Shown in pieces: positions 22,977 to 49,554 of a DNA stretch of 49,722 nucleotides. Both the position numbers and the translations under genes were made by a program. Numbering within the stretch: the first letter of the stretch is position 1; each line of letters begins with the position of its first letter. This DNA comes from Acholeplasmatales bacterium (lineage in GTDB: Bacteria; Bacillota_I; Bacilli_A; Acholeplasmatales; Anaeroplasmataceae). The DNA lies in the NCBI GenBank assembly GCA_017449215.1, contig JAFSJY010000061.1:1-49722 (forward strand), given 5' to 3'. The notes under the pieces were generated by a model. The model ran no database searches and had not been told where the DNA came from. It saw only the letters and a list, made by a program, of their open reading frames with translations.

Positions 22977-23000
22977 AAAAGCACGGGTTACCGTGCTTTT
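22977..23000 (+). terminator. Terminator placed directly before the helicase-nuclease gene
   Basis: AAAAGCACGG and CCGTGCTTTT form a 10-bp stem with a 4-base loop, followed by T's. The next start codon is only 16 bases further, leaving no room for a promoter. Confidence 0.85.
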
Positions 23001-23016
23001 AAATTATAGGAGCGTT

Positions 23017-29750: not shown

Positions 29751-29851
29751 AGTATCATTTTACCATAAAAGATTAAAGAATTATATAATTCTTTCACATA
29801 AAAAAAATAAAGGATACATATGTAAAAAAAGTGTGTTTTTCTTGCTATTAT

Positions 29852-29859
29852 GATAAAAT
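29852..29859 (+). promoter_or_regulatory. Extended -10 promoter of the nuclease-MutS operon
   Basis: TGATAAAAT (29851-29859), 19 bases before the GTG start, with no good -35. Confidence 0.4.
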
Positions 29860-29878
29860 AATAACTAAGGTGATAACT

Positions 29879-31370: not shown

Positions 31371-32456
31371 ATGAGCAGTTTAAATAAAATGTATGATAAA
31401 TTTAATGCAATAAATAAATATTTATTTAAAAAAGATAAGCTTTCATTAAAGGAAAAATATGTTTTTGAATTAACTGCGTTTGCTATATCTTTAATTTATG
31501 AAAATAAAATTAAAATGAATTTATCTATTACAAAAAGAGAATTATCTAAAAATGTAATAGAAATAATTACATTAATATCTTATTTAGAGGATAATCCAGA
31601 ATTTGAAAAAGAAATTGATTTATATACTAAAAAGACAGAAAAATATCTTTATTTAAAATACAAGAATAAGATAAAGGATAGCTTTTATCATTTTAATGTA
31701 GATGAATCTAAAGAAGTAGATAATAATGCATCAATTAAAATTGATATGAAGGAATTAATAAAGAAGTATCATAATGAGTTATTAAATTATTATGAATTAT
31801 TAATTTATAATAAGGAAATTAATGATTTAACATTAAATACTACATTATTAATGACTATCTATATTATTAGCCAAAAAATGTATCCTAATTTATTAGCTAA
31901 ATATAAGGAAACACTAGAATATGCAGAAAGCTTTTTAATTAATCATCCACTTAGTCAAAGATATATGATATATTTAAGAAGTGAATTTGATTTATTAAAA
32001 AGAATCTTAAATTATAGAGATAAATTTATTGAAATAGGAAATATGCTAATATCATTTTCTATTGATAAATTATATTTAAATTCAGAAACATTTGAATCTA
32101 AATTTACTACATTAATTAATTATTTAAGAGAATTTTATTTTGATATAATAAATTCAGATGATGATTCAGTATATTCATTTATTGATTCAATCGATAATGA
32201 TGAAATCAATAAGGAGTATATTAAATTAATATATGACGAATCAATAAATTTAAATCATAGATTAGGCTATTCAATAACATCTAATATTGATGTATATCAG
32301 GAATATAGTATCGCTATTAGATTTGTTGATTTAGCTATATCTGAATTAATTAAAATAGTAGGAGATGCTGATATTTATAATGATTTTATTAATATCGTAG
32401 ACTCTAAAAATACATTTGATTATGAAAATCAATATCTAGTAGATAAAAAAGAATAG
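31371..32456 (+). CDS. Unknown helical protein
   Basis: 361 residues, predicted soluble and mostly alpha-helical, rich in Ile, Lys, Asn, Tyr and Glu. No signal peptide and no catalytic motif can be seen, and I recognise no family. The central part (about 125-240) looks like several amphipathic helix pairs. It starts 5 bases after the nuclease stop with AAGGAG as SD, so it is co-expressed with the Cas4-like fusion and the MutS-like proteins. A scaffold or adaptor role is conceivable but not shown. Confidence 0.7.
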   Translation: MSSLNKMYDKFNAINKYLFKKDKLSLKEKYVFELTAFAISLIYENKIKMNLSITKRELSKNVIEIITLISYLEDNPEFEKEIDLYTKKTEKYLYLKYKNKIKDSFYHFNVDESKEVDNNASIKIDMKELIKKYHNELLNYYELLIYNKEINDLTLNTTLLMTIYIISQKMYPNLLAKYKETLEYAESFLINHPLSQRYMIYLRSEFDLLKRILNYRDKFIEIGNMLISFSIDKLYLNSETFESKFTTLINYLREFYFDIINSDDDSVYSFIDSIDNDEINKEYIKLIYDESINLNHRLGYSITSNIDVYQEYSIAIRFVDLAISELIKIVGDADIYNDFINIVDSKNTFDYENQYLVDKKE

Positions 32457-32465
32457 GAAAAGAAT

Positions 32466-32861
32466 ATGTATAAGAAAGTAAAGCCAACATGTAAAACAGT
32501 ATTTAAAATTAATATTTCATCTATCGGAGATACTGAGCTTAATGATATAATTGAGACAATTGGTGTTGAACCAGGTATTTCTGATGCTTATTTATTTTAT
32601 GGCTTTATGAAAAGAAATACAGATGATAAATTCTTTTTATTTGAACAGGTTAGTGATACATTAAGTTTAATTGAAAATAAAAAGGAAGAATTAATAAGAA
32701 TAAGAAATATGTATCATGTTTCTTATTGCTTAGAAATAATGTTTTCTGATATAGAGGATGAAATAAAAAGAAATACATCATTTGAGATTGGTAGCTCTAA
32801 ATATTTCATAGAAGAAATAGGTGGATATATTAATCTAAATAATGGATATTTAGAGGATTAG
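32466..32861 (+). CDS. DUF4279-like protein
   Basis: 131 residues, soluble. The order FKINISSIGDTELNDIIETIGVEPG, a central FLFEQVSDTLSLIENKKEELIRI, then VSYCLEIMF and FIEEIGGYINL resembles DUF4279 proteins, small alpha-beta proteins often found near toxin-immunity or mobile genes, with no proven activity. The assignment is from pattern only. It sits in the middle of the nuclease-MutS operon, 9 bases after its neighbour. Confidence 0.55.
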   Translation: MYKKVKPTCKTVFKINISSIGDTELNDIIETIGVEPGISDAYLFYGFMKRNTDDKFFLFEQVSDTLSLIENKKEELIRIRNMYHVSYCLEIMFSDIEDEIKRNTSFEIGSSKYFIEEIGGYINLNNGYLED

Positions 32862-32870
32862 GTGATTAAT

Positions 32871-34385
32871 ATGAAATATAGCATTTTATTTAAAAATGAA
32901 TATGAATTAAATAAAAATATGCCAGATTTCTTTATTAATATTAATGCTGATCAGGTAGTTAATAATATATTAAGAGATGATAATGGTAACTTACCTATTT
33001 TTTATACTCCTTTAAAGAATGAGGAGGATATAAAATATCGTCAGGATATCTTTAAGGATTTAGATAATAGAGATGTATATGTTGAATATAATTCAGCTAT
33101 TTCTAGACTTAAAAAAATATATGATTCATTTAAGGCTAATGAATATGAGGCTAATACATCTTGGGCTGGAAAAAGAACATTACTTAAACAAATAGATGCT
33201 TATTTAAAGACTATTAATAGCTTTAGAGATTTTTTAAGTACATCAGATTTAATTAAAAGTGAAGGCTTAAAGAATTTATGTAAATATTTAGTAGAATTCA
33301 CATCTAAAAATGAATATAAGGAATTAGAAAAGAATTTAGAGACAGTAAAAAATGTTGTTAATGGAATGAGATATACATTAGTATTTAATGGATGTGATAT
33401 CTATGTTTCTAAATATGATGATGATAAGGATTTTACTCCATTCATTTCTGATGCATTAAAGGGATTTAGCTGGGATTCTAAAAGAGAATTTAATTATACT
33501 GTTAATGAAATGGTATCTTCTAGATTAATTGACCATAATGTTTTAAATTGTTTAAGCAAGATTTATAAGGAAGAATTTAAAGCATTACAGGCTTTTTGTC
33601 ATTTATATAAAAGCTTTTATGATTTAGATTTATATAGAATAGTATTAGAGGCTAAATTCTATACATCTGTACATTTCTATTTTGAAAAGCTAGAAGCTAC
33701 TGGACTCGAATTCTGCTATCCAGAATTCACTCCTGATTTTAATGAGGAGAGCATTGATTCATTTGATTTAGCTTTAGCCTATAGATTAATGAATAGAGGA
33801 GAAAAGATAGTCATTAATTCATATTCATTAAATGAAAACGAAAGAGCAATTATCCTATCAGGTCCTAACCAGGGTGGTAAAACTACATTTGCTCGTCAGC
33901 TAGGTGAATTACATTATTTTGCATTACTTGGTATTAAGGTACCTGGTAAATATGCAAGACTTCATTTAATTGATTCATTATATACTATCTTTAAAACAGA
34001 AGAGGCAATGGAAACATTAAATGGTAAGCTTCAAAGTGAGCTTGTTATGGTCCATGATATTATTAATAAGGCAACTAAGGATTCATTCTTAATTTTTAAT
34101 GAAATCTTCGCATCTACTACATCATTAGATGGATATGAATTAACTAAGAAGCTAATTGATTCTATTGAAAAGATTGGATGTATGTGCTTATTCATTACAT
34201 TCATTGACGAGCTATCATCTATATCTAAAATTACAGTTGCGATGCGTAGTAATGTATCAAAGGAAAATCCTATGATTAGAACATATAAGATTACTAAGGA
34301 AGAATCTAATGGTAAGGCCTACGCTAATGCTATATCATTGAAGCATCATTTAGCTTATGATGAAATAAGGAGGCGAATTAAATAA
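32871..34385 (+). CDS. MutS-like ATPase 1
   Basis: 504 residues from the ATG after AGGTGAT; a GTG at 32862 is an alternative. It lacks the N-terminal mismatch-recognition domain (no Phe-x-Glu motif). A helical core (IKYRQDIFKDL, long helices about 60-270) precedes a MutS-type ATPase: Walker A GPNQGGKTT from Gly331, and Walker B LIFNEIFAST with Asn410-Glu411 where MutS has Asp-Glu. It therefore cannot be an ordinary mismatch-repair MutS, but may clamp or remodel nucleic acid. It overlaps the next gene by one base; the two are paralogues that may form a heterodimer. Confidence 0.8.
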   Translation: MKYSILFKNEYELNKNMPDFFININADQVVNNILRDDNGNLPIFYTPLKNEEDIKYRQDIFKDLDNRDVYVEYNSAISRLKKIYDSFKANEYEANTSWAGKRTLLKQIDAYLKTINSFRDFLSTSDLIKSEGLKNLCKYLVEFTSKNEYKELEKNLETVKNVVNGMRYTLVFNGCDIYVSKYDDDKDFTPFISDALKGFSWDSKREFNYTVNEMVSSRLIDHNVLNCLSKIYKEEFKALQAFCHLYKSFYDLDLYRIVLEAKFYTSVHFYFEKLEATGLEFCYPEFTPDFNEESIDSFDLALAYRLMNRGEKIVINSYSLNENERAIILSGPNQGGKTTFARQLGELHYFALLGIKVPGKYARLHLIDSLYTIFKTEEAMETLNGKLQSELVMVHDIINKATKDSFLIFNEIFASTTSLDGYELTKKLIDSIEKIGCMCLFITFIDELSSISKITVAMRSNVSKENPMIRTYKITKEESNGKAYANAISLKHHLAYDEIRRRIK

Positions 34386-35857
34386 TGAAAACAGGATTAT
34401 TATTTAAGGATAAGCCCCTTAGATTAAAGGAATTAAATAGTTTTGATAAAGCATTAATAGATGATTTAGAGCTAGAATTAATTATTAATGAGGCCGCAGA
34501 TAGAAGTAAGATTATAAGAAATGTATTTGAAAATGTATTATTAACTCCTTTAACTGATAAGGAATTAATATTATATAGGCAGGAAATCTTAAAGGATGTA
34601 ATTAATAATAAGGTTCAGGTTGCTAAATTTTATGATTTAATATCTGTCGCTATTTATAACATTAAGGATAAATTCCGCTTTGGTATTATTGATAATTCAC
34701 CATCAGCTGTTGTTAGAACATCAGTTGATATGATGAAATATGCATTTGAGCAAATTGAATACGCAAGAGAATATTTAGTTAATTTTAATAATGTGAAATC
34801 GGAAGGCTTAAATAGCTTTATAGAGGATATGAATAAGGTATTTGATCCTCAAACTATAGCAAAGGCTAGAACTGTTTTAAATGGTATGGATTTTGAAAAT
34901 GGCTATATGGTAAGTGCCGAGCTAGATTCTACAATGACTGAGAATAATTATGTTTTCCACAGATCTACATTTATTGATAAGGATTCTAAAAAGAGATGGA
35001 AGAAGGCCGAGGTCATTGAATTCCCTACAATGAGTGAATCATTAGTAAATGATATTAATAAGAAGCTAGATTTAGCATTTAAGTCAGCTGCCCCTATTAT
35101 GGGTAGAGTAATGAATGATATAATGGATTATTTAGATTGCTTAAGAAATGAGCTTGCTTTCTATGTTGGATGTATTAATTTATATAATTCATTTAATAAA
35201 AATGGAATGGAATTTACATTCCCTTCTATTAGTGATAATAATGATTTTATTTATGAAAATTTATATGATGTTGCTTTATCATTTAGAAATAAGAAAATGG
35301 CTGTTGGTAACAATCATAATATTTTAAATAAGAAAATCATGGTTATTACAGGTGCGAACCAAGGTGGTAAGACTACGTTCTTAAGAAGCTTTGGTCAAGC
35401 AAAGCTAATGTTACAATGTGGTATGTTTGTTGGAGCTAAATCATTAACACTTGGATTAACAAATGGTATCTATACTCATTTTGATAGAGAAGAGGATACT
35501 AATATGGAATCTGGTAAGCTTGATGATGAATTAAAAAGATTAAGCTTAATTGTTGATGATATTAAGCCAGGTGCTACTATTTTATTAAATGAATCCTTCC
35601 AATCAACTAATGAAAGAGAAGGATCTACAATAGGCTTTGAAATAATAAGAGCTTTATTAGATTCTAATATCAATATCATATTAGTAACTCATATGTATGA
35701 GCTTGCGATTGATGTAAAAAATAGCTATGATAAGGATGCTATATTTATGAGAGCTGAAAGAAATGATGACGGCTCAAGAACATTCAAAATTAGTGAAAAT
35801 GAGACATTAAGAACAAGCTTTGCGATGGACTTATACAATAAAATTTTCAGTGAATAA
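34385..35857 (+). CDS. MutS-like ATPase 2
   Basis: 490 residues, same architecture as its neighbour: helical core with LYRQEILKDVI, Walker A GANQGGKTT from Gly323, Walker B ILLNESFQST with Asn402-Glu403, and the C-terminal MutS switch region (NIILVTHMYELA). It too lacks mismatch-binding and clamp domains. The Asp-to-Asn change in Walker B is shared by both, so it is a family trait rather than decay. The SD AGGAGG lies in the end of gene 1. The last gene of its operon; a terminator follows. Confidence 0.8.
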   Translation: MKTGLLFKDKPLRLKELNSFDKALIDDLELELIINEAADRSKIIRNVFENVLLTPLTDKELILYRQEILKDVINNKVQVAKFYDLISVAIYNIKDKFRFGIIDNSPSAVVRTSVDMMKYAFEQIEYAREYLVNFNNVKSEGLNSFIEDMNKVFDPQTIAKARTVLNGMDFENGYMVSAELDSTMTENNYVFHRSTFIDKDSKKRWKKAEVIEFPTMSESLVNDINKKLDLAFKSAAPIMGRVMNDIMDYLDCLRNELAFYVGCINLYNSFNKNGMEFTFPSISDNNDFIYENLYDVALSFRNKKMAVGNNHNILNKKIMVITGANQGGKTTFLRSFGQAKLMLQCGMFVGAKSLTLGLTNGIYTHFDREEDTNMESGKLDDELKRLSLIVDDIKPGATILLNESFQSTNEREGSTIGFEIIRALLDSNINIILVTHMYELAIDVKNSYDKDAIFMRAERNDDGSRTFKISENETLRTSFAMDLYNKIFSE

Positions 35858-35942: not shown

Positions 35943-35971
35943 TTGACTTTAAAAAGTGGTTTTTGTAAAAT
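35943..35971 (+). promoter_or_regulatory. Promoter of the Snf2-giant protein operon
   Basis: TTGACT (35943-35948) and TAAAAT (35966-35971) with a 17-base spacer, giving a leader of about 60 bases. Confidence 0.75.
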
Positions 35972-36038
35972 ATATATATATCACTAACGATTCAGAATAT
36001 AATTTATAATTATATTTCACGAAAGGAGAATATTTTTT

Positions 36039-39000
36039 ATGTTAAAGCAATATTCAGATAATATTAATAATATTTGTGATTTAATTAAACGTATTTTAGG
36101 TGTAAAAAATCCATCTAAAATTACTTTTAATATGCTCAATGATATGTTCGATTTAGATATTGAGGATAGTAAGCTAATAGCTAAGGTATTAGCTGCTGTA
36201 AAGAATGACAAAAGAATGTCTATGCCTGCCATATTGTTGTTAATGTTACAGGATTCATTCGAATATTTCGTGAAATATGAAGATAAATATGAAAGCATAA
36301 AAAATAAATTATTTGTGAATAAAAGTATGGATGAATTGGCCAATATTCTTAAGGAGGATATGTGGCCTTTTTATCCTTTTTTCCAAGAGGCTTTAGCAGT
36401 ATTCGCAACTCTTTTATATCCAGAGATCTTTAGTGGAATTACTGATTTAGATCTTGTTTTTGAGTCATCATTAAGAGAGTTAGTATTTGTTGATTCTGAA
36501 GGATATGTTATTCCTATTACATTTGAAAAATTCTTTAGTCAATGTAATGAATTTATAGAAGATTCTTATGAAAAGGAAATCTTATATTCTAGTAGTGATT
36601 CAAATGTTTCCTTCCACGAAATCACCAATGTTAATGAGCAATTAAATGATGAGTATAGTATTTTTACTTATAATTTTATGGAGCCTTATACGAATTTAAA
36701 GGAATTCGCAGAGGAAAGATATAATGCTGTATTTGGTATTTTAAATGACATATCGGTAAAGGCTATCGCTCCTGAAATTAACGCTACCTATAGATATACA
36801 AAGGATTCTATTAGGGAATTAAAATTTAATATTAGTAATGTTAGAAATCTAGATGTACTAGAGGAAAGAAACCAAGAGGTTAATGATTTAAAGGTTTATT
36901 CAGTAACTAGATTTAATGAATTTACTGATTACATTAACAATAATTCTTTAACTGAATATCCTGAATCTTATAGAAAGCTTGAAAAGCTATTAGTTACAGA
37001 TGAAGAAGGAACATTAGATAATCTATATATCCAAATCGATGAAAAGATTAAGGTACTAGAGGCTAGATATGAAAAGAAAAAGAGGATGCAGCTAGTAAGA
37101 GATTTATCTATTAAGATTAAGAATTTCTCTGAATTCCTAATTGGTTTAAAAACTGAAATTGGTGATATGAATAATATTACTAAAAGACAAATGGGTAATT
37201 TTAAATCTAAGGATCAGGCTGAATTCTTCTTAAATAGATTAAAGCTACAAAAGACATCTTATTTTAAGAATGTAAGAGTATTTGATTATTTATCTATGTC
37301 TATAGATTTAGAATCACATGATTTTAAGATTTATAAGAGAAATGATTTTGATGAAATTAATGATTCTATAAGAACTATGGAAAAGTTCTTAACTAAGGTA
37401 ATTGATAGTATTTTACCTGAGGTTGAAATAAAGGAAGAATCTGATTTTGAAAATGAAGGTAGAAAGGTTGATATTGATGGAAATATGATCAATGTTGCCC
37501 TAATGAATGAGGATTTTTCTGAATTATCATTTGAAAATGATTTAGGTCATACATTTAATATTCATGATTATTCTGCATATCATAATTTAGTTGATTTCGC
37601 AGTAGAGGTTAGAAAGCAGCCAGTATTCCAGGATTATGGTGATATTTCTGAATATCCATATTTTAAGCCTTTTAAATATCAGGTTGATTCAGTAAGAACA
37701 ATGCTTGGTAGATTTGAAGGTAGAGGAGTATTTGGTGATCAGGTAGGTTTAGGTAAGACTTTAGAGGCATTAATGACAGCCGATGTAATGTATAGATGTG
37801 CAACTATTAAAAATGCTGTAATTGTTACTACTAAATCTACCATTAGACAATGGCGTAATGAGGCAATGACTAAATTCCGTCATGAGGATGGAAGTCCTAT
37901 GTTTGAGGTTTATCCTAAGCATGATTCTTATTCATTTAGAGAATTAATGAAGGAATTATTAAAGGATAAGAAGACTAAAAATTCTAATGCATTAAAGATA
38001 TATTTAGTATCTACTGAGCAAATTAAATCAGCTGATACATTAGAATTTATTAAGGAAAGTGGAGAATATTTTGGTATTAAAAATGCTTATAATAATCCAA
38101 CTCCATATATTCCAACTGATGTTAAGGTAATAGATACTGATGTATCTGATATTTATTCTTATAAGCACTTAGATATATTAAGAAAAAGATTATTCCTAGA
38201 ATTAAAAAGAGAAATAAATGAAAGCCTAGAAAAGAATGAGAAGTATAAGAAGATAACTACATTTAATGTATATGGCTTTTTCACATATGAATATGATGAG
38301 GCATCTAAGATATTTGTAAATACAAATCATAGCTTATATGATGAAAAGAATCCAGAGGATTCTGTTGTATTAAATGAAATTAAGATGCTAAAGGATTATA
38401 CTAAGAAGCTTGCTCAAATAGATGAAAGAAGAGCCGCTGTAGAAAATGAATTAGCAGCGTTAAAGGAAAAGTATTCCTACGCTGATAAGAGATTAGTTGA
38501 TTTATTAATTTTTGATGAGGTTCAGGATTTATTATATAACTTCAATCAAAAGGGAAATAAGGAACAGCTATTACAGGAATTTATCGCTAATATTCAAAAG
38601 AAATATTGTATTTTAATTTCTGCAACACCTATCAAGAATGATTTAAATGATATCTTTAATTTACTATATATGGTAGATAAGAATAGATTAGGTGAAACAA
38701 AGGAAAAGGCTGAGGCTAAATTCTATAATGCATATTGTGGTGGTGCTAAATCATTATCTGATATGGCTAAGCAAAGTGATGCCGCCTCACGCTTTAAGAA
38801 GCTAAATGGTCTAATTAATTCAATGTTTACTAGAAAGAGATTATATGACTCAGATGTAATTGAATCTATTAGAAGACATTCCGCAACACAAGAGGAAATC
38901 AATAATGTTAAGGATTTAGGTAGAGATGATTATGGTGGACAAGCATTTATGAAGCTTATGGGTGCCATTAGAAGATCAGCTCAGGTACTAAATACTCAGG

Positions 39001-40469
39001 ATGAGGGCTCATTTATTAATAGATATTTAAGACCTCTATTCCCAAGATATGATTTAAGTGATGAGGTATTAAAGGATGCCTTTATTAAGCTTTCATCATA
39101 TGTTGATAGTGCCGCTAAAATCTGTGTTAGAAGATTAGAATATGAATTAAGAATGGATTTAAGAGACTTTAATGTTTACGATAAATTCGTTGAAAATTAT
39201 CGCTTAATTCTAAAATATGAACAAGATGGAATTAAGAATGATATTTATCAAACAGCTATTAAAACATGTGATTTATTAATTAATTATATTAATAGAGGCT
39301 TGCTAGCATTCTATAGATCTTATCAGGATTATTCTACTGTATTCCTAAGTGATTATATTGACTGGAGAAGACCTAGAAAGCGTGGAGAAAGAATAATAGT
39401 TGAAAAGGATATTGATAAGATTGAAATCTTCAAGGATTTATTAACATTAAATGATTATAAATATGATAAGTATCAAATGAGTCCAAATAATCTTAAGGCA
39501 CTTGAGGGTGGTAAGATATTATTCTTTGAAAAGAAGCCTGAGGTAAGAGCTAATATTTATAAAAATATAAAAGATACATTACCAGAATTTGGTAATAAGA
39601 GAAGAGTATATATGACTCTTTCTACATCAGATGAGCAATTATATGACTTAAATGATTTCATTCATTTCTGTTATTTCCCTAAGGGTAAGCAGAAGGATGA
39701 AATGAAGAAGCTATTAGAATCAATCTCTAATAAAAGTGATTTAACATTTGATGAAAAGAGAATGCTAGATACTTATACATTAAATGGAACATTATTAAGA
39801 AATGAAGTAGAAGAGGATAATGTTAAGGGATTGAATTTTAAGAATTTCACTGAATTCACATTTGAAAATGAGAATTGGAATTCTATCTATTTTATAGATA
39901 AAACAATGCTTGCCGGTACTGACTTTAACGCTGCGAATATATTAGTAATAGGTCAAATAGATAGACCTGATGGAGAATATATGGATCCACTAGAAATGGA
40001 ACAGCTAATAGGTCGTATTTCAAGAATTGGTCAAACTGAGGAATGTATTGTATTTACTTGTCTTTATAATGGTATTAATGATAAATCTAATAATTTAGAA
40101 TTTAATAAGATTTATTATGACATTTTAACAGATGAGGATGGCTTTGATTTATATGGTGTATGTCAAACAGAGGTAGATTTCGTTTTACCTGTTGTTATGG
40201 CAGTTGGTAAAAGATTATTTAGCTATGAATATTCATATTTAGAAATGGATGATAAATTTAAGAATGACAATTCTGATTTTAAGGCTATTTATAAGGATGG
40301 ATATATCGAGTATTTAGGAAATAGATTCCCTGATTTATTAAAATATGCATATAACAATAATGAAAATATAACAGTTTATTATAAGAAAAATGAATATAAG
40401 CCTTTAGATGCTATAAAGGAAATGATTAGATTATATGCTAATATTTTAAGACCTGAAAATAAGAAATAG
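36039..40469 (+). CDS. Large Snf2-type helicase-like ATPase
   Basis: 1476 residues, much longer than typical bacterial Snf2 proteins. The first 540 residues are unrecognised and mainly helical, with coiled-coil-like stretches (about 260-460). The motor follows: FKPFKYQVDSV, Walker A GDQVGLGKT (566-574), IVTTKSTIRQW, a long Lys/Glu-rich insert, the DEAH-type box as FDEVQ (825-829), LISATPIKNDL (motif III) and motif VI QLIGRISRIGQT (1322-1333). All key motor motifs are present, so it should translocate on duplex DNA. No nuclease or methyltransferase motif was found. The SD AGGAG is about 10 bases from the ATG. It leads a three-gene operon. Confidence 0.82.
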   Translation: MLKQYSDNINNICDLIKRILGVKNPSKITFNMLNDMFDLDIEDSKLIAKVLAAVKNDKRMSMPAILLLMLQDSFEYFVKYEDKYESIKNKLFVNKSMDELANILKEDMWPFYPFFQEALAVFATLLYPEIFSGITDLDLVFESSLRELVFVDSEGYVIPITFEKFFSQCNEFIEDSYEKEILYSSSDSNVSFHEITNVNEQLNDEYSIFTYNFMEPYTNLKEFAEERYNAVFGILNDISVKAIAPEINATYRYTKDSIRELKFNISNVRNLDVLEERNQEVNDLKVYSVTRFNEFTDYINNNSLTEYPESYRKLEKLLVTDEEGTLDNLYIQIDEKIKVLEARYEKKKRMQLVRDLSIKIKNFSEFLIGLKTEIGDMNNITKRQMGNFKSKDQAEFFLNRLKLQKTSYFKNVRVFDYLSMSIDLESHDFKIYKRNDFDEINDSIRTMEKFLTKVIDSILPEVEIKEESDFENEGRKVDIDGNMINVALMNEDFSELSFENDLGHTFNIHDYSAYHNLVDFAVEVRKQPVFQDYGDISEYPYFKPFKYQVDSVRTMLGRFEGRGVFGDQVGLGKTLEALMTADVMYRCATIKNAVIVTTKSTIRQWRNEAMTKFRHEDGSPMFEVYPKHDSYSFRELMKELLKDKKTKNSNALKIYLVSTEQIKSADTLEFIKESGEYFGIKNAYNNPTPYIPTDVKVIDTDVSDIYSYKHLDILRKRLFLELKREINESLEKNEKYKKITTFNVYGFFTYEYDEASKIFVNTNHSLYDEKNPEDSVVLNEIKMLKDYTKKLAQIDERRAAVENELAALKEKYSYADKRLVDLLIFDEVQDLLYNFNQKGNKEQLLQEFIANIQKKYCILISATPIKNDLNDIFNLLYMVDKNRLGETKEKAEAKFYNAYCGGAKSLSDMAKQSDAASRFKKLNGLINSMFTRKRLYDSDVIESIRRHSATQEEINNVKDLGRDDYGGQAFMKLMGAIRRSAQVLNTQDEGSFINRYLRPLFPRYDLSDEVLKDAFIKLSSYVDSAAKICVRRLEYELRMDLRDFNVYDKFVENYRLILKYEQDGIKNDIYQTAIKTCDLLINYINRGLLAFYRSYQDYSTVFLSDYIDWRRPRKRGERIIVEKDIDKIEIFKDLLTLNDYKYDKYQMSPNNLKALEGGKILFFEKKPEVRANIYKNIKDTLPEFGNKRRVYMTLSTSDEQLYDLNDFIHFCYFPKGKQKDEMKKLLESISNKSDLTFDEKRMLDTYTLNGTLLRNEVEEDNVKGLNFKNFTEFTFENENWNSIYFIDKTMLAGTDFNAANILVIGQIDRPDGEYMDPLEMEQLIGRISRIGQTEECIVFTCLYNGINDKSNNLEFNKIYYDILTDEDGFDLYGVCQTEVDFVLPVVMAVGKRLFSYEYSYLEMDDKFKNDNSDFKAIYKDGYIEYLGNRFPDLLKYAYNNNENITVYYKKNEYKPLDAIKEMIRLYANILRPENKK

Positions 40470-40480
40470 GAGGTATAAGC

Positions 40481-42607
40481 ATGGAGATTCAAGCATTATG
40501 CTATTTATTATCTTATGCATGTGAGATTGGTTTAATTGAAAATATTAATCCATCACCATTAGATATTAATAACTTAATAGAGAATAAAGAAAAGTTTTCT
40601 TTTGATGTTAGAAATGGCGCTTCTTATGTTTATGACTTTAATGATCCTATTTCAGAGGAAAGTGAGCAATCTGTAAGAGCATTAAGGGATTTATTACCAA
40701 TATGTGGAATCATTGATTTAGTATATGAATCAATAAAGCTTGGTATAGTTACAGATATTAGTAAGGATTATTCATCTCATGAGCTTAAGGAATTTGATGG
40801 AGATTATTCTAAGGTAGTAGAGGTTCCTTGTTTCTATTTCAAGATTAATAGTGAGCTTTTTGATGATACTATCTATAAGATTACATTTGATAAGAAGAGA
40901 CATGATATCAAAAATAAAATAGAATATGCGAGCCGAACATCATTATTCATTGATACATTAATGAAAAGAATAATGGCTAAATATAATATTTTATTAGTAA
41001 GAAAGGCCTCTTGGGAAAACCAAGAGGAGCCTACCCTACCTTTAGATAAAAATGCTAGCTTTGATTTTAGTAGTATATCAGATTCATCATTTGAAACTGA
41101 TATGATAGAAAACCAATTAAAGGTTTTAATTAATTATAGAGATAACTTTAATAACACAACATGTAGTGAAAATGTTATTGATGATATCTTTATTAATTTA
41201 AAGGGTAATGAAATTAATTATGGATTCTTTAATATCGGTCAGGATGCCGATACAGAGCCTTTATATGATGTTATTAATGATGATGTATCAATAGATGATA
41301 TTGACTCATTATTAAGAATTAGAAAGGTAATTAATGATTCATTAGTTAAATTTAATATTTTTGAAACATTAAGAAAGAATCCTAATACTAATCTAGCTAG
41401 ACTTATTGATTTAAGAATAAAGGATTATGATAAGGAAATAAATTCAGATCCTAAGATTGAATTCACTATTACACCACTTTCTATTTATTGTAACCACATC
41501 GTAGAAAAGACTGCGGTATATGAAATAAGAAGTAATAATAAATTATATGAGGAATTTAGTGTAACATATAATGTTACATATAATCCAACAGATGCTAAAT
41601 CAGCTAAATTTATGATTTACGCTGATGGTGAATCAGAAATGCTAGGTAGTGATGATGAATTAGTTATAGCATTTGATGATATTAAGGAGGATAATAAGGA
41701 ATTAAATCCTGAAATATCATCTAAGAAGTACGCAACTATGCTATATGGATTACATAAAAGATATGATAATGATTTATATAAGGATGTATATTTTTTAAAT
41801 GATTCATTAGTTAAATTAGTAAATGGTAATTTAATGCCTTATGATGGTATTCCTGATTCAGATACTTATTTAAAGAGTCAGGTTGTTAAGGGTGAAATTA
41901 CTGGTAATTATTTATATATTAAGGATGCTATATCTATTGATGCTTCTGATATTCTAGGTGTTGATTTATTAGATTTAGATACTAAGAGATATATCTGGAA
42001 GGATTATGCTAGAAAATGTGACATTTGTGGTCATGTTTTTGGTGCTACAAAGGAAGTATGGAATTTATATAAGAATTCTCATTTATTAGTAAATGAATTA
42101 GATAGAAAATCATGCTGCGACAATTGTAAGGGAACAATCCTAGATAATGGTAATGCCATTATTTATTCAGCTGGATATAATGAATATTATTTAGATAATT
42201 TAGATACATTAAAATATACTGAGATTTGTTCTTGCTGCGAAAATCCAGATAATTCATTTATTTATGTTAATCCAATTAATAAGGGAAGAGGCAAATGCAA
42301 GATTTGCTCTAAATATTATTGCTCTAAACATATTAACTTAGAGACAAATATCTGTGTTAATTGTGATCAATCTACTCCAAAGAGAGATCAAATATTAGAT
42401 ACTAAGCTATTAAAGCTAATAAAGAAGAATTTAGATCCACTAGATGCTGTATCTAAGAATTTAACATTTAATTATATGAAGGATGAGAATTCACTTTGGG
42501 TATATTCAAAGAGAAAGAATAAATCCATTACATATTATCTAGTATTAGATGATGATGAGACATTTGCTCATCAATCAGGAAAATATGTGAAAAGAGGTGA
42601 TGAATAA
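40481..42607 (+). CDS. Cysteine-rich zinc-binding protein of unknown function
   Basis: 708 residues, soluble. The first 500 residues are unrecognised, acidic and rich in Asp, Asn and Ile. From about 510 to 640 there are several zinc-ribbon-like clusters: Cys513/Cys516 (CDICG), Cys545-549 (CCDNC), Cys583-586 (CSCC), Cys606/Cys609 (CKIC) followed by YCSKH, and CVNC. This suggests two or three zinc sites, of the nucleic-acid- or protein-binding kind. It begins 11 bases after the Snf2 gene with AGGAGG and overlaps the giant gene by one base. A partner of the Snf2 motor is the simplest idea, but only context supports it. Confidence 0.7.
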   Translation: MEIQALCYLLSYACEIGLIENINPSPLDINNLIENKEKFSFDVRNGASYVYDFNDPISEESEQSVRALRDLLPICGIIDLVYESIKLGIVTDISKDYSSHELKEFDGDYSKVVEVPCFYFKINSELFDDTIYKITFDKKRHDIKNKIEYASRTSLFIDTLMKRIMAKYNILLVRKASWENQEEPTLPLDKNASFDFSSISDSSFETDMIENQLKVLINYRDNFNNTTCSENVIDDIFINLKGNEINYGFFNIGQDADTEPLYDVINDDVSIDDIDSLLRIRKVINDSLVKFNIFETLRKNPNTNLARLIDLRIKDYDKEINSDPKIEFTITPLSIYCNHIVEKTAVYEIRSNNKLYEEFSVTYNVTYNPTDAKSAKFMIYADGESEMLGSDDELVIAFDDIKEDNKELNPEISSKKYATMLYGLHKRYDNDLYKDVYFLNDSLVKLVNGNLMPYDGIPDSDTYLKSQVVKGEITGNYLYIKDAISIDASDILGVDLLDLDTKRYIWKDYARKCDICGHVFGATKEVWNLYKNSHLLVNELDRKSCCDNCKGTILDNGNAIIYSAGYNEYYLDNLDTLKYTEICSCCENPDNSFIYVNPINKGRGKCKICSKYYCSKHINLETNICVNCDQSTPKRDQILDTKLLKLIKKNLDPLDAVSKNLTFNYMKDENSLWVYSKRKNKSITYYLVLDDDETFAHQSGKYVKRGDE

Positions 42608-45600
42608 TGTCATTATCTAGTGAAATAAGAGCTAATAAGAAAAAGAATAATAGTAATGAAACTAAGCAAATTATTAAGAATCATAAGCTTATGAATGTCA
42701 TTAGATTATCATTATTCTTAACTCTTTTAATAGCTGATATATTCTATATTATTAAGGAAAATATTATTGGTATTTCTAATTTTACTAATACATTATTAAT
42801 TATCTCAATTATATTAGAGGGATTAATTTTTGTTGGTTTATTATTCTTAAGATTTAATACTGAAATTAAGTTCTTAAAGGTTACATCTATACTTATTTAT
42901 GCTATTCCTATCATTGCTTATGTGCCTATGATGACATATGGAGATGGATTTAGTATTATATTATTCTTAATAAGAATTGTATTAATTGGTGGCTTATTAT
43001 TTATAGCAACAAGAGAAACACAATCAATTAAGGGTAGTAGATTTATTGCTAAGCAAATTACCTATATCTTTATGGTTGCCTTAATCTTTGTTGTTACATT
43101 TATATTGTTAATTTCATCTCAAACAAGAAGAGTTGTATATTCTTATGATGATGCTAAGGATGGATATATTGTTAAGGATGTTTTAAAGGGATATTCTGAT
43201 GTTGAATTTAAGGATGGAACTATCAAGATATCTGATAATTCCCTTTCAAATGCTGGCGAAATAATTACTATTCCTTCATCAGTAATTGAGGTTAGTGATA
43301 ATGCATTTAAGGATAGTAATGTAAAGGAGATTTATTTAAATTCTTCCAATATTTCTATTATATCTGCGTTAAATAATTCTAGTGTAGAGAAAGTATATGT
43401 TAATGATTCTAATTTAGTAATTAATGATTTACCATTAGCTTCAACTAGAAATAAGTATAAGTTTTATTTAGATAAAAGCTCTGTAGATGAATATAGAGAG
43501 AAATATCGTAAATATGATTATTTATTTGTTCCTAAATGTGATGATGGTGAATTATATGTAGCATATAATAACACATCATTACCTATTGAATACTATAAGG
43601 ATGGAGATTTAGTTAAATCACCTACTGTTTCTTCAACAAATGAGAAGAGATTTAAGGATTGGGGATATACATTTAATGTAGGATTAGATAAGCCTACATT
43701 CCCTATTGAAATTCATAATAGCTTAGACTTATTTGCGACATGGAATAAGGTATATAAAATTACCTTAAATTATAATGGTGGTACTGTTACTGATGATAGT
43801 CCAAGCATTTATGAATCTATGCCAAATGACATTTATGTAATATTTGATGATGGAGATGTTAAGCTTCCGGCATTACAAAAGTCTGGTTATAGATTTGACG
43901 GTTGGTATTATGATGACGAGCAGCTATATGAAAATACTATTAATGTTAACTATATTTCCGATATGACTGTTGAGGCAAGATATAGTAGAATCTTCAAATT
44001 AAAGTATCATGAAAATGGAGGATATATTCCAGATGCCGAAAAGAATCAGGAATATGTTGATGGTGATTATATTAGACCAGCAACACCAGAAAGATTAGGA
44101 TATGAATTTGATGGCTGGTATGATAATGCTGAGCTTCAAGGAAATAGAATAGAAGTAGTAAATAATTATAATATCGATTTATACGCTAAATGGAAGCTTG
44201 TCGCTCCTGTATTAACAGTATCTAATGATATTAATAAGGTTTATGATAATGATCCTATTGCACTTTCTGTAGATATTAATCATCCACTTATTAATGATGA
44301 CGATTTCTCTATTTCTTATAAGTGGTATAAGAATGATGATACTAAGGTTATTAGTACTAAGAGTGCTTATAACGTAATTGAAGCACAAAATAATAAATAT
44401 TATTGTCATATTACAATTAAGCATTTAGGTAATACATATGAATTAGATTCTGATTATATCAATGTTAATATTGAAAAGGCAGAATATGATTTATCAGAAA
44501 TTACATTTGATAATTACACATTTAAATATGAATTTAATGGTAAGCAACAAATGCCTAAGATTGAAGTTCCAATTAAGGGTAAGGATGGTATTGCCGTTGT
44601 TGTTCAATATTCTTATGCTGGTAATTTCATTGATGTTGATGATACAGGTACTGTAACAGCTACATTCACAACAGATTCTAATAACTATATCGCTCCAGCT
44701 TCCATGACTGCTAAGGTAGAAATCATAAGAAAGAAGCTAGAGGTAGTATTTGATTCATTATCATTTGTATATGATGGTAATGCTCATAAGCCTGTTGGTA
44801 CATTAGTAGGAGTAATTGATGGATATCCAGTTGAATTAACATATCCTACAACAGTAACAACAGATGTAAATGATGATTATAAGCTATACTTTAATATTAC
44901 AGATTATGATCACTATAATATTGATGATGAATATGTTGTTTATGAAATAACTAAGGCTGATTATGATTTATCTAATCTAACATTTGATAATACAACATTT
45001 GATTATGATGGAACTACACATTTACCAACACCTACAAATTTAGTATCAGGATTAACATTAGATACAAGTAATTCAATTGGTGCTAAATATGTTAAGGATA
45101 CAAAGGTAACATTATATTTCATTAATTCAAATCCAAATTATAATGATCCAGCTTCAATAGATATTAATGTAATTATTAATCCTAAAACAATTGATATTTC
45201 ATTAAATACGACTGAATTTACTTACAATGGAAATGTATTATTCCCTAATTCAAATGTAGATGGATTGATTGATAATGATGAAGTAGAAGTTATTTCATTA
45301 AATAATTCTATTAATTTTGGTACTTATATATTCGAATTTGAATTACAAGGAAAAGATAAGGATAATTATGTTGTTTCTAATAGCTCATATAATCTTTCTT
45401 ATGTTATTAAGAGAGCAACATATGATTTATCTGATTTAACATTTAATAACCAAGTATTTGATTATGATGGAACTGCACATTTACCAACACCAGTAAATTT
45501 ACCAGAAGGATTAACAATAGATGTTAATAATTCAGTTGGTGCTATAAATGTATCAGATACAAAGGTAACATTACATTTCATTAATACAAATTCAAATTAC

Positions 45601-48600
45601 AATACTCCATCTGATATGAATGTTAATGTAACAATTAATCCAAAGAAGATAATTGTTAATGTAATTGAATCTAATTTAACATATCAAAAGAAGCTATTAG
45701 TTCCTGAATATGTATTAGATGGAAGAATTAATAATGATATCGTTGATATTAATATATTAAATACTGATTCTATAGATGTAGGTAATTACACATTATATCC
45801 AGAATTAACAGGTTCTGATAAGGCTAATTATGTAATTGATGAATTTAATTCAAACTTAGATTATTCAATTGGTAAGGCTGATTTTGATATTCAATATATA
45901 TTCTTAGAAAATACTATTTATGAATATGATGGTTCATATCATCATCCAACATTAGATTTAGTAAATGGCAAGAAGAAATATTATACTACTTACCAGGATG
46001 AGATTACTATTGAATATATTGAAGAATATAAGAATGCTGGTATCTATTCTGTAGAGGTTGAATTTAGTGTTTCTGGAAATAGCTCTAACTATGTTTCAGC
46101 GAAGAGACAATCATATAATTTAACTATTACTAAGAAGGAAGTAACATTAGAATTTGATTCATTATTATTCATGTATTCTGAGGGTACATTACATAAGCCA
46201 GAAGTTTCTAAAATTATTGGTATGGTTACTGGTGATGATATTACTATTTCTGTATCTAATAATGACATTACTGAGGTAGGAGAATATGAATTAAGATTTA
46301 CATATAATGGTTCAGCAAGTGGTAACTATATTGTTAATGAAACATATAAGGCAATAGTTGTTGGTGAACAAAAAACTATTACTGGATTTACTATAAATGA
46401 TTATGTAGGAACATATGATGGTAAGGAACATACAATTACAGTTACTGGTCTTGAAGAAGGCATAACTGCAGTCTTTGACAAGAAGATGAAGGATGTATGC
46501 CAAGATGTAGATGTAAAAATAACATTCGAATCTAGTGATCCAAATGTTGGTATTACAACTGTAGCTTATGGTAAAATCACAATTAATCCAAAGCCTATTA
46601 CTGTTGAATTTGATACTACTACAAATCTAATTTATAACGGTGAAAACCAAATTCCAAACGCTACATTAACAGGTGTAGTTGAGGGAGATATCGTTAATAT
46701 CATTATGAATAACGCTTCTGTAAATGCTGGTATTTATAACGCTATCGCGTCATTAGATAACAGTAATTATACGATTTCTAATTCTAATGAACTAACTTAT
46801 ACAATCGAAAAATGCCATGTTAGCCTAGTATGGGGTCAATTAGATTTAGTTTATTCTAAATCTGCATTAAAGCCAACTGCGAAGGTTAAATATAATGGCG
46901 AAGAATTAGATACAATAGTTAATATCATAGCAGATTCTAACATTAATGTTGGTACATATGCTGTAACAGCAGAGCTTGAGGATAATAATTATATTATTGA
47001 TGGTAGTCCATCAACAACATATAATATCATAGCTAAGCCTGTATCACTTGAATGGTCAAATAAGACATTAATTTATAATGGTAAGTCACAAGCACCTACT
47101 GCGACAGTAACACCTATTATTGGAGATAACTGTACAGTTAATATTTCAGGTGCAGAGGTTATTCCTGGCACTTATACAGCAACTGCTTCATTAAGTAATC
47201 CTAATTATGTTATTGATGGTTCTGATTATACTTCATATACAATTAATAAGGGTGTATTAACTGAAGACGAATGTAATAGTGTTGATTATTTAACAAATGT
47301 TGTTTATGATGGTAACCTTCATGGACCTAATATTGAAATAGCCAATAGATATACAAATGATAAATCTTTAATTATGTATCGCTATAATGGCAAAAAGAAT
47401 GCCGATCAATATTATATAGATGTAGAGTTCTATACTGAAAATGGATATTATGAGCCATTGATAGTATCAGTTGCGTTAGTAATATCTCCACTTGAGCTAA
47501 GCATCGTATTAAATGAAACAGAATTAAGATTTAATAATAATATTGTTGTACCAACATTCACTATTTTAAATAAAGTAGATGGTGATGATATAGAAGTTAC
47601 TATCGCAAATACAAGCTCTACAATTGGAGAATATGTAGCTGACTTTAGTAGAACTGGAGCCGATAAGGATAATTATAAGATTACTAATACATATACTTAT
47701 TCAATTATTAAGGGAATTATTGATATGACTGATGTTACATTTGAAAATACTGATGTAACTTATAATGGAAATCAACAATTACCTACATCAGCTAATTTAC
47801 CAGAAGGTGTATTAATTGATACAGAAAATTCAATTGGTGTAATTAATACAACAGATACAGTAGCGACTGTTAAGTTTACATTATCTGGACAAATCGCTGA
47901 TAATTATGAGGTACCTGCCGATATTAATGTTAATATGACAGTATCTAAGAAGCTATTAGCTATTAGCTGGTTAACTAAAGTATTTGGATATGATGGCAAT
48001 AAGCATAAGCCTACATATGAGTTAGTTGGAGTAGCAGATGGTGATATAGTTGAATTAGTATTTGATTCTGAGGGTGAAACAAACCAAGGTACTTATGCTA
48101 TAACTGCAGCTTCAGTAACAAATAATAATTATTATATTGAAGAAGAAGTATGCGAATATGAAATAACACGTGGTACATATGATATGTCTAATGTGTCTAT
48201 TTCTGATAAGACATTTATATATGATGGTAAATCTCATAATAATGCTATTAGCATTGATCAAAGTGAATTACCTGATGGTGTAACTGCTGAATTTGTATAT
48301 GATACAAATCCAATCTATGTTGGTAAGTATAAGGTAACAATTAAGTTTACTGGTGATTCTTATAATTATGAGCCAATTCCTAATATGGAGGCATATGTAA
48401 TTATTAATCCATTACCAGTAACAGTTGAGTGGTCTAATACATCATTTACTTATAATGGTAGCTTCCAAGCTCCAACAGCTAGCATTACATCTACATTAAT
48501 AGGATCTGATGTATGTGATGTATCTGTAACTGGTGCTAAGAAGGATGCGGGTACTTATACAGCAACCGCTGTATTAACTAATTCAAATTATGTTGCTAGT

Positions 48601-49554
48601 ATAGTAGAACAAGAATATACAATTTCTCCTTATGTATTAAGTGTTACAGTATATTGTGATACTAAGAGTGGAAATGCCGGAACTACATTCAATTATATGT
48701 ATGATGGTTTAGTTCATAATAATTTAACTGCGACATTTGATGAATCTAAGCTAATCGGTGACGATGATTTAGTAATTACTGTAAATACAAGTACATTTAA
48801 GGCTAATGTTGGTACATATTCATATACATTATCATTCTCTAATAATAACTATAGACCTACTACTTATACAGGTGCGGTAGTTATTAAGAAACTAGAATTA
48901 TCTGATAGTAATTTCACTATGTATGTTACTGATGGAGTAATTACAGGTGAATACACATTATCTGATTATAAGTTCTATTCATATATAAACTATAAATCTA
49001 CAGTTTATACAAAGAATATGGATGCTAAGGTAATTTATTATTACATTAAGACTGGTGGTAATAAATGGACTGAAAGTGATTATGTATTATTAGATGGTGA
49101 GCCAACAGTAGCTGGAACATACTATGTTACAATTGAAAGTACAAATACTGATAATATTACAATATCTCATAACAGTATTTGGAGCTTAAGAGAATATACA
49201 TTTGCACCAATTAATACAAAGGAAATTTGGTCAATTGATGGACAGTATAATTCTAATTTATTTACCGCAACAGGTAACCAAACTAAAACTAGTGCGACAT
49301 TCAATATAGATAATGAAACAGTAACATTTACTAGAGGATTAAAGCTTGAAACTAATGGTGGTACTATTACATTCACAATTAGTAGTGAAAAGACTTTAAC
49401 TATCTATTCTATGAATGGACAAACAGTAAAGATCAATGACACAAGCTATAGTGTTACATCAGACTCAGGAACTGAAATAACTCTTGAGGCTGGAACATAT
49501 ACTATTGCTAAGGGTAATGGAGCGACTGTTGTTTACGCATTAACATTAGAATAA
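42607..49554 (+). CDS. Giant multi-pass membrane-anchored surface protein with MBG-like repeats
   Basis: 2315 residues. Five hydrophobic helices lie in the first 170 residues (about 30-49, 57-80, 88-107, 110-130, 147-168). Then come a short BspA-like leucine-rich stretch (about 195-270), two InlB/Listeria-Bacteroides-type repeats (about 383-460 and 463-528; GYRFDGWYYD, GYEFDGWYDN, LYAKWK), an Ig-like segment, and about 19 beta-rich units of 70-80 residues, each with a YDG/YNG-x-x-x-x-P motif (about 620-2090), like MBG domains. The C-terminal 115 residues contain RGLKLETNGGTITFT, resembling a domain in the methylesterase. There is no LPxTG motif or lipobox, so anchoring is by the N-terminal helices. 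Likely an adhesin or polysaccharide-binding stalk. Confidence 0.8.
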   Translation: MSLSSEIRANKKKNNSNETKQIIKNHKLMNVIRLSLFLTLLIADIFYIIKENIIGISNFTNTLLIISIILEGLIFVGLLFLRFNTEIKFLKVTSILIYAIPIIAYVPMMTYGDGFSIILFLIRIVLIGGLLFIATRETQSIKGSRFIAKQITYIFMVALIFVVTFILLISSQTRRVVYSYDDAKDGYIVKDVLKGYSDVEFKDGTIKISDNSLSNAGEIITIPSSVIEVSDNAFKDSNVKEIYLNSSNISIISALNNSSVEKVYVNDSNLVINDLPLASTRNKYKFYLDKSSVDEYREKYRKYDYLFVPKCDDGELYVAYNNTSLPIEYYKDGDLVKSPTVSSTNEKRFKDWGYTFNVGLDKPTFPIEIHNSLDLFATWNKVYKITLNYNGGTVTDDSPSIYESMPNDIYVIFDDGDVKLPALQKSGYRFDGWYYDDEQLYENTINVNYISDMTVEARYSRIFKLKYHENGGYIPDAEKNQEYVDGDYIRPATPERLGYEFDGWYDNAELQGNRIEVVNNYNIDLYAKWKLVAPVLTVSNDINKVYDNDPIALSVDINHPLINDDDFSISYKWYKNDDTKVISTKSAYNVIEAQNNKYYCHITIKHLGNTYELDSDYINVNIEKAEYDLSEITFDNYTFKYEFNGKQQMPKIEVPIKGKDGIAVVVQYSYAGNFIDVDDTGTVTATFTTDSNNYIAPASMTAKVEIIRKKLEVVFDSLSFVYDGNAHKPVGTLVGVIDGYPVELTYPTTVTTDVNDDYKLYFNITDYDHYNIDDEYVVYEITKADYDLSNLTFDNTTFDYDGTTHLPTPTNLVSGLTLDTSNSIGAKYVKDTKVTLYFINSNPNYNDPASIDINVIINPKTIDISLNTTEFTYNGNVLFPNSNVDGLIDNDEVEVISLNNSINFGTYIFEFELQGKDKDNYVVSNSSYNLSYVIKRATYDLSDLTFNNQVFDYDGTAHLPTPVNLPEGLTIDVNNSVGAINVSDTKVTLHFINTNSNYNTPSDMNVNVTINPKKIIVNVIESNLTYQKKLLVPEYVLDGRINNDIVDINILNTDSIDVGNYTLYPELTGSDKANYVIDEFNSNLDYSIGKADFDIQYIFLENTIYEYDGSYHHPTLDLVNGKKKYYTTYQDEITIEYIEEYKNAGIYSVEVEFSVSGNSSNYVSAKRQSYNLTITKKEVTLEFDSLLFMYSEGTLHKPEVSKIIGMVTGDDITISVSNNDITEVGEYELRFTYNGSASGNYIVNETYKAIVVGEQKTITGFTINDYVGTYDGKEHTITVTGLEEGITAVFDKKMKDVCQDVDVKITFESSDPNVGITTVAYGKITINPKPITVEFDTTTNLIYNGENQIPNATLTGVVEGDIVNIIMNNASVNAGIYNAIASLDNSNYTISNSNELTYTIEKCHVSLVWGQLDLVYSKSALKPTAKVKYNGEELDTIVNIIADSNINVGTYAVTAELEDNNYIIDGSPSTTYNIIAKPVSLEWSNKTLIYNGKSQAPTATVTPIIGDNCTVNISGAEVIPGTYTATASLSNPNYVIDGSDYTSYTINKGVLTEDECNSVDYLTNVVYDGNLHGPNIEIANRYTNDKSLIMYRYNGKKNADQYYIDVEFYTENGYYEPLIVSVALVISPLELSIVLNETELRFNNNIVVPTFTILNKVDGDDIEVTIANTSSTIGEYVADFSRTGADKDNYKITNTYTYSIIKGIIDMTDVTFENTDVTYNGNQQLPTSANLPEGVLIDTENSIGVINTTDTVATVKFTLSGQIADNYEVPADINVNMTVSKKLLAISWLTKVFGYDGNKHKPTYELVGVADGDIVELVFDSEGETNQGTYAITAASVTNNNYYIEEEVCEYEITRGTYDMSNVSISDKTFIYDGKSHNNAISIDQSELPDGVTAEFVYDTNPIYVGKYKVTIKFTGDSYNYEPIPNMEAYVIINPLPVTVEWSNTSFTYNGSFQAPTASITSTLIGSDVCDVSVTGAKKDAGTYTATAVLTNSNYVASIVEQEYTISPYVLSVTVYCDTKSGNAGTTFNYMYDGLVHNNLTATFDESKLIGDDDLVITVNTSTFKANVGTYSYTLSFSNNNYRPTTYTGAVVIKKLELSDSNFTMYVTDGVITGEYTLSDYKFYSYINYKSTVYTKNMDAKVIYYYIKTGGNKWTESDYVLLDGEPTVAGTYYVTIESTNTDNITISHNSIWSLREYTFAPINTKEIWSIDGQYNSNLFTATGNQTKTSATFNIDNETVTFTRGLKLETNGGTITFTISSEKTLTIYSMNGQTVKINDTSYSVTSDSGTEITLEAGTYTIAKGNGATVVYALTLE
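44959..45640 (+). repeat. Internal duplication in the giant gene
   Basis: The segments about 44959-45185 and 45419-45645 encode near-parallel units (YDLSxLTFxNxxFDYDGTxHLPTPxNL). They share long identical stretches at DNA level, for example TTTGATTATGATGGAACT and GATACAAAGGTAACATTA. A third, more diverged copy starts near 47725. Type A and type B units alternate, so the repeat was copied as a pair. Confidence 0.75.

Follow-up and report, generated by a model that had tools for sequence, protein, structure and literature searches.

Background

The type I Zorya system (ZorABCD) encodes together a membrane-embedded sensor, a motor of the helicase type and one more cytoplasmic partner, and ZorAB senses and then recruits the cytoplasmic ZorCD (PMC11890865). 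DISARM (DrmA-DrmB, DrmD) combines an SF2 motor and a zinc-binding partner that has a gene of its own; DrmB supplies the zinc module, or canopy, of the helicase DrmA in trans, from a separate adjacent gene (PMC12458937). RapA, a bacterial Swi2/Snf2 protein, belongs to the same helicase superfamily. Fibrillar adhesins (PMC8286594) carry a long repeat stalk with an adhesive-type domain at one end.

We report here a three-gene unit that resembles each of these in one part and differs from all of them as a whole: a Snf2-type motor, a zinc protein and a giant surface protein. It lies in the window, a stretch of 49,722 nucleotides that is one of the 88 contigs of a 2.05 Mb draft genome (G000) of an Acholeplasmatales bacterium, and was singled out in an initial annotation of that sequence as a candidate undescribed system. 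The comparison covers 27 genomes (species) of the genus; the relatives identified by name are MAGs labelled Acholeplasmatales, Bacillales or Erysipelotrichaceae, which points to an uncultured genus of low GC content, probably close to Acholeplasmatales.

Results and Discussion

Organisation of the three-gene unit

The three genes are intact open reading frames on the + strand that together encode 4499 residues, with a gap of 11 bases between genes 1 and 2 and an overlap of 1 base between genes 2 and 3. The initial annotation, which had described three genes of about 4500 residues with these same junctions, agrees with the reading frames. The main features are as follows:

35943..35971, + strand: promoter-like site TTGACT-17-TAAAAT, with an equivalent site in 4/4 clade-I copies
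36039..40469, + strand: gene 1, Snf2-type motor, 1476 amino acids, motifs conserved in all copies compared
40481..42607, + strand: gene 2, orphan zinc protein, 708 amino acids, no family match
42607..49554, + strand: gene 3, predicted giant membrane-anchored surface protein, 2315 amino acids
49590..49615, + strand: terminator-like hairpin, bidirectional, starting 36 bases 3' of gene 3

The junctions are tight in all copies of the unit, with gaps of 3-13 bases or overlaps, and each of the three starts is preceded by a good Shine-Dalgarno sequence. The promoter-like site is sigma-70-like, took the top rank in the scan (10 of 12) and ends 68 bases 5' of gene 1. Promoter-like matches overall are no commoner than chance (77 found against 116 expected from shuffles), so the weight rests on the conservation of the site, which has equivalents 5' of gene 1 in three other clade-I genomes, and not on the match itself. 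A short CGATTC element just past the -10 box (35975-36010) recurs in G000, G008 and G017 and is possibly an operator or start-site feature. At the other end, similar hairpins lie 3' of gene 3 in those relatives that were read; in G008, the sequence directly after the terminator, at the contig end (L033:18740-18813), resembles by eye the start of a group II intron. No inverted repeats of the kind that form transposon ends bound the unit, and no tRNA or structured RNA landmarks were found within the window.

The contig also carries a RecF/SMC-like gene followed by gyrB and gyrA and is thus probably near the origin. Several of its other genes deserve mention. A helicase of the DinG/XPD-like type (22993-25362), whose N-terminus gives a PD-(D/E)XK-like match, has kept its place close to gyrA in several species of the genus, and a DUF2779/UU173-like protein with an RNase_H_2-like domain (29831-31366) is separated by unfamiliar genes (31371-32861) from a pair of MutS-domain-V ATPases of 507 and 490 amino acids (32862-35857), which is patchy in the genus. 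The second of these ATPases also scores with the KamC-type reactivase ATPase, at 74 bits, below the cut-off. We considered this upstream pair as a part of the unit and rejected it, since it is independently patchy and placed away from the unit in other genomes.

The motor

36039..37652, + strand: N-terminal region of gene 1 (residues 1-538), mostly helical, no sequence family

The motor contains a Walker A motif GLGKT (K573), DEVQ (826-829), SATP and a motif VI that reads QLIGRISRIGQ. Motifs I, II, III, V and VI are intact and invariant in 9 copies and, because of this conservation, the protein should be an active ATPase. It belongs to the Snf2-class SF2 ATPases, as Pfam PF00176 (SNF2-related) matches with 49 bits against a cut-off of 24.9, and ResIII (Pfam) falls just below its own cut-off. 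The curated families that come closest, DrmD, DpdE, PLD-antiphage and RapA, stay far below their cut-offs; among the PADLOC models BrxH and DpdE lead, and the top score of all, 84.6 bits, comes from phrog_62, a phage helicase family. The RapA equivalog model gives 35 bits against a cut-off of 576 and the motor does not qualify as a RapA: it has a helical N-terminus of 540 residues in place of that of RapA and, with only about 140 residues past motif VI, it is without the long C-terminal part of RapA.

The N-terminal region had been described at the outset as unrecognised over some 540 residues and it has remained so, with no sequence match in Pfam, NCBIfam or the PDB. Structure prediction, which had been suggested for this region, yields long antiparallel helices (mean pLDDT 75), for which Foldseek returned no significant match. 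A spectrin-like likeness (Z up to 11.1, rmsd 10.1, 273 residues aligned) was set aside, as long helices may give such values by chance. The same genome encodes a second giant Snf2 protein of 1450 amino acids (L167:9191-13543; SNF2 match E 3e-64) in an ordinary setting; this and a further Snf2 reading frame of 1022 amino acids were rejected as parallel systems, having ordinary neighbours and no such partners.

The zinc protein

40841..41020, + strand: most conserved block of gene 2 (residues 121-180), 85% mean identity, distant from the zinc sites
42017..42127, + strand: zinc site 1, C513-x2-C516 ... CC546-x2-C549, invariant ligands
42227..42364, + strand: zinc sites 2/3, C583x2C586-x19-C606x2C609-x4-C614x2H617-x7-C625x2C628, FYVE/PHD-like cross-brace spacing

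Gene 2 has no family match in Pfam, NCBIfam or PADLOC, and its first 500 residues, noted from the beginning as unrecognised, also lack any sequence match in the PDB. The zinc-rich character first ascribed to the protein is borne out by 12 cysteines and 1 histidine that are invariant in 10/10 copies; these 13 ligands would make two or three sites. The cross-brace ligands, in the order CxxC-CxxC-x4-CxxH-CxxC, are likewise invariant in 10/10, and FYVE is the commonest weak Pfam match (2/10 members, best E 1.6), in a part where model confidence is low. An HNH nuclease in zinc site 1 is ruled out by the ligand spacing, H534 and N538 being only four apart. Away from the zinc sites, the block of residues 121-180 is a candidate contact surface, to judge from its conservation.

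The predicted structure, also obtained as first suggested, has a mean pLDDT of 72 and a pTM of 0.47 and gave no significant Foldseek match. The model of residues 169-343 aligns with the C-terminal domain of RapA over 134 residues with an rmsd of 5.1 and a Z of 6.9, where values below 8 are background for models of this kind. Four RapA entries nevertheless take the top four structural ranks (Z 6.9 to 5.3), the next, unrelated, entry having a Z of 4.3. Given the neighbouring motor, this likeness is suggestive and may serve as a lead, without support at the level of sequence, as hhalign finds no sequence match between the zinc protein and the RapA C-terminal domain.

The giant surface protein

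42697..43116, + strand: five-helix membrane anchor of gene 3 (residues 31-170), N-in/C-out by charge
43198..44190, + strand: BspA-like LRR stretch (sub-threshold) and two Listeria-Bacteroides (Flg_new) repeats
44464..49116 (approximate limits), + strand: stalk of MBG/YDG-type repeats
49243..49536, + strand: C-terminal CBM77-like tip

The five-helix surface protein of the initial annotation is recovered as five hydrophobic segments within the first 170 residues of gene 3, with a positive-inside pattern in 7/7 aligned copies. With its stalk repeats and adhesive-type domain (MBG, Flg_new and CBM77), gene 3 is predicted to be a surface protein of the fibrillar-adhesin type, oriented C-out by charge; it differs from the described fibrillar adhesins in having five N-terminal helices as its anchor and in being inherited strictly together with the motor and zinc-protein genes. 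The CBM77-like tip is present in 7/8 copies with complete C-termini, that of G009 being the exception; CBM77 is used as a probe for low-esterified homogalacturonan, which it binds (PMC5943554).

The length of the protein varies across copies from 2082 to about 3180 amino acids. In the G009 gene (L034:16453-19421), internal stretches were duplicated recently, with 91-96% identity over 300 nt and a period of 1137 nt, while the window copy has no tandem repeats and its internal repeats are 72-80% identical over 100 nt or more.

Co-occurrence and history

The zinc protein is present in 10/27 genomes of the genus, and exactly these 10 also have the motor and, at E below 1e-89, the gene 3 five-helix anchor. 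Below these, the anchor search gave matches of E 1e-9 or weaker, most of them confined to the LRR-like portion of other surface proteins, and the anchor was found in no other protein of the genus. The remaining 17 genomes have none of the three proteins and there is no partial case. Gene order is identical in every carrier where the contigs permit a view; in G017 and G006 the unit is split by contig ends, which fit together. The possibility raised at first, that the genes would be found apart in related genomes and so form only a local neighbourhood, did not materialise. Neighbours of the unit are common only to the sister pairs G000/G008 and G004/G015, and elsewhere the flanks differ: G009 has a C1-like peptidase and a DUF1295 protein there, G015 a GNAT and a RelA/SpoT protein, G003 a DUF2089 regulator, and G024 a MATE-like transporter and a GNAT. 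The unit is also absent from the gyrA-side stretches readable in G009 (6.7 kb) and G023 (19.5 kb). As the flanking genes differ except between the closest sisters, the unit is self-contained, and the co-inheritance in 10/27 genomes supports the initial view of it as an undescribed system; we regard it as a real and conserved three-gene unit. A few genes from it in G003 (L038:2088-4541), a weak TIR-like domain is fused to twelve Sel1 repeats; proteins of this make-up can be defence-related.

Completeness varies across the set, but among the 12 best genomes of the genus only 4 carry the unit and 8 do not, so its absence from the non-carriers is real. Among the functions proposed at the outset, which ranged from defence or competition and DNA uptake to housekeeping, the last is made unlikely by this distribution, with 17/27 genomes, including 8/12 of the best, lacking the unit. 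No further full-length copy was found with the motor and zinc-protein profiles in 395 genomes of the class, nor with the motor profile in 392 genomes of the phylum, both of which samples include members of the genus. An origin in phages or plasmids was rejected: viral contigs contain no relatives of either protein, phages contain none of the motor, and the plasmid search gave none for the zinc protein and only weak Snf2-core matches for the motor.

On the gyrA tree, six carriers form one clade (100/100) and the distribution of carriers needs three changes. The partner of G000/G008 is G009 in this tree (100/99) and G017 in the Snf2 tree (100/99); because of the conflict, either at least one transfer or an artefact of the gyrA tree, in which the G017 branch is long, must be invoked. 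Between G000 and G008, dS is similar across the unit (0.77-1.03) while dN/dS is 0.14 for the motor, 0.16 for the zinc protein, 0.27 for the anchor and 0.54 for the ectodomain, compared with 0.08 for gyrA. These ratios point to strong purifying selection on the motor and zinc protein and to fast divergence of the ectodomain, whose faster change would reflect either weaker constraint or diversification.

Comparison with the described systems

The unit does not qualify as a Zorya system. ZorA/ZorB (MotA/MotB-like) domains are absent from the three proteins and the upstream genes tested, the ZorD model matches the motor only marginally (E 0.0018 over 77 residues) and no nuclease family does; neither a ZorC nor an Mrr-like nuclease was found, and the membrane protein is a five-helix anchor bearing a giant extracellular fibre. 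Nor does it qualify as DISARM, since DrmD matches the motor core with E 3e-11 but with 42.2 bits against a cut-off of 610. A Pfam search of 10 gene 2 members for DUF1998/MZB, the zinc domain of DrmB, gave nothing up to E 10, and the unit has no methylase or other Drm protein. A search of the literature for the combination of a Snf2 motor, a zinc protein and a surface fibre returned nothing relevant. The parts of the unit are of known classes; their combination is not.

A proposed mechanism and its rivals

We tentatively propose that the giant, fast-evolving fibre is physically coupled, through the five-helix anchor, to the Snf2 motor and its zinc partner, so that ATP-driven work on the DNA inside would be steered by contacts made outside the cell. 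The Snf2 and zinc proteins would form one ATP-driven complex on DNA, to which the zinc protein would contribute in trans an accessory domain missing from the motor; the anchor would dock or recruit this complex to the membrane, and the stalk and tip would report contact or injection from outside, by a phage, another cell or a fibre, upon which the motor would act on DNA at the site of contact. Such operation would be like that of Zorya (membrane sensor and Snf2-type motor) and of DrmA-DrmB, though built from different parts, and these two precedents, the DISARM zinc canopy in a separate gene and the Zorya sensor that recruits ZorCD, make the model a sensible one.

The likeliest purpose of a DNA motor tethered to the membrane and steered by a surface sensor, albeit a doubtful one, would be a first line of defence against DNA entering the cell. 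It is favoured by the co-inheritance in differing surroundings, by the tight junctions, by an anchor specific to the unit, by the conserved ATPase motifs, by the closeness of the motor to DrmD, DpdE, PLD-antiphage, BrxH, RapA and phrog_62, by the contrast in dN/dS between the inner and outer parts, by the structural likeness of zinc-protein residues 169-343 to the RapA C-terminal domain, and by the patchy distribution together with the tree conflict that concerns G009 and G017. Against it, the three proteins showed no nuclease, methylase or toxin domain, the RapA likeness is at background level and lacks support from sequence, and a defence-island setting is unsupported, with ordinary neighbours and a weak PADLOC match for 1/10 nearby genes. 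We know of no defence system with a fibrillar-adhesin-like component, fast divergence of the ectodomain is usual for adhesins, and a carbohydrate-binding tip would fit attachment to fibres at least as well as the sensing of phage.

The tip also invites a reading as outside-in signalling, which we consider unlikely, whereby the fibre would detect a plant polymer or a partner and a RapA-like motor with its zinc partner would remodel RNA polymerase or the nucleoid and so change expression. Two relatives bear 'RUG' isolate codes, which we take to denote rumen MAGs, RapA is among the closest motor families and the zinc protein has its weak structural match to the RapA C-terminal domain, but the motor is equally close to defence helicases and no RapA profile match is given by hhalign for the zinc protein. 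Similarly, a CBM77-like tip in 7/8 complete copies would suit the recognition of low-esterified homogalacturonan (PMC5943554), yet the G009 tip has no CBM77 match and fast change of the ectodomain is odd for a receptor of one constant polymer. That same diversification fits the recognition of partners and, with a DNA motor, a zinc protein and a membrane fibre in one operon, could speak for contact-dependent DNA uptake, transfer or competition, in which the fibre would hold DNA or a neighbouring cell while the motor pulls or processes DNA at the membrane. We find this less probable again, as no match to a known DNA channel family was obtained for the five-helix anchor, the unit contains no pilus, ComEC, relaxase or toxin gene, and the tip has no toxin domain.

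More doubtful still is an adhesin that brings along factors for the upkeep of its own gene: the motor and zinc protein would act on gene 3, through repeat expansion, expression or variation, and so generate antigenic or adhesive diversity. The near-identical internal duplications of the G009 copy and the wide range of lengths of the gene 3 protein would fit such a role; the window copy, however, has no tandem repeats and only diverged internal ones, divergence is mostly through substitution, other giant LRR-bearing surface reading frames of the genus lack the anchor, and the 17 genomes without the unit, whether or not they have such surface reading frames, have neither the motor nor the zinc gene. 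That the genes are functionally unrelated, and together by chance or for the sake of a shared promoter, is very improbable: co-transcription would not prove joint function, but ordered co-occurrence in 10/10 carriers with differing surroundings, and 0 partial cases in the other 17, argues against it.

Conclusion

None of the known systems tested, nor any found in the literature searched, couples a Snf2 DNA motor to a fibrillar surface protein. If the coupling that we propose is real, the unit would connect surface events with DNA in a new way, with defence as the most likely context. An orphan zinc protein and a five-helix anchor that are strictly co-inherited provide a clean and testable target even if the function turns out to be more modest.
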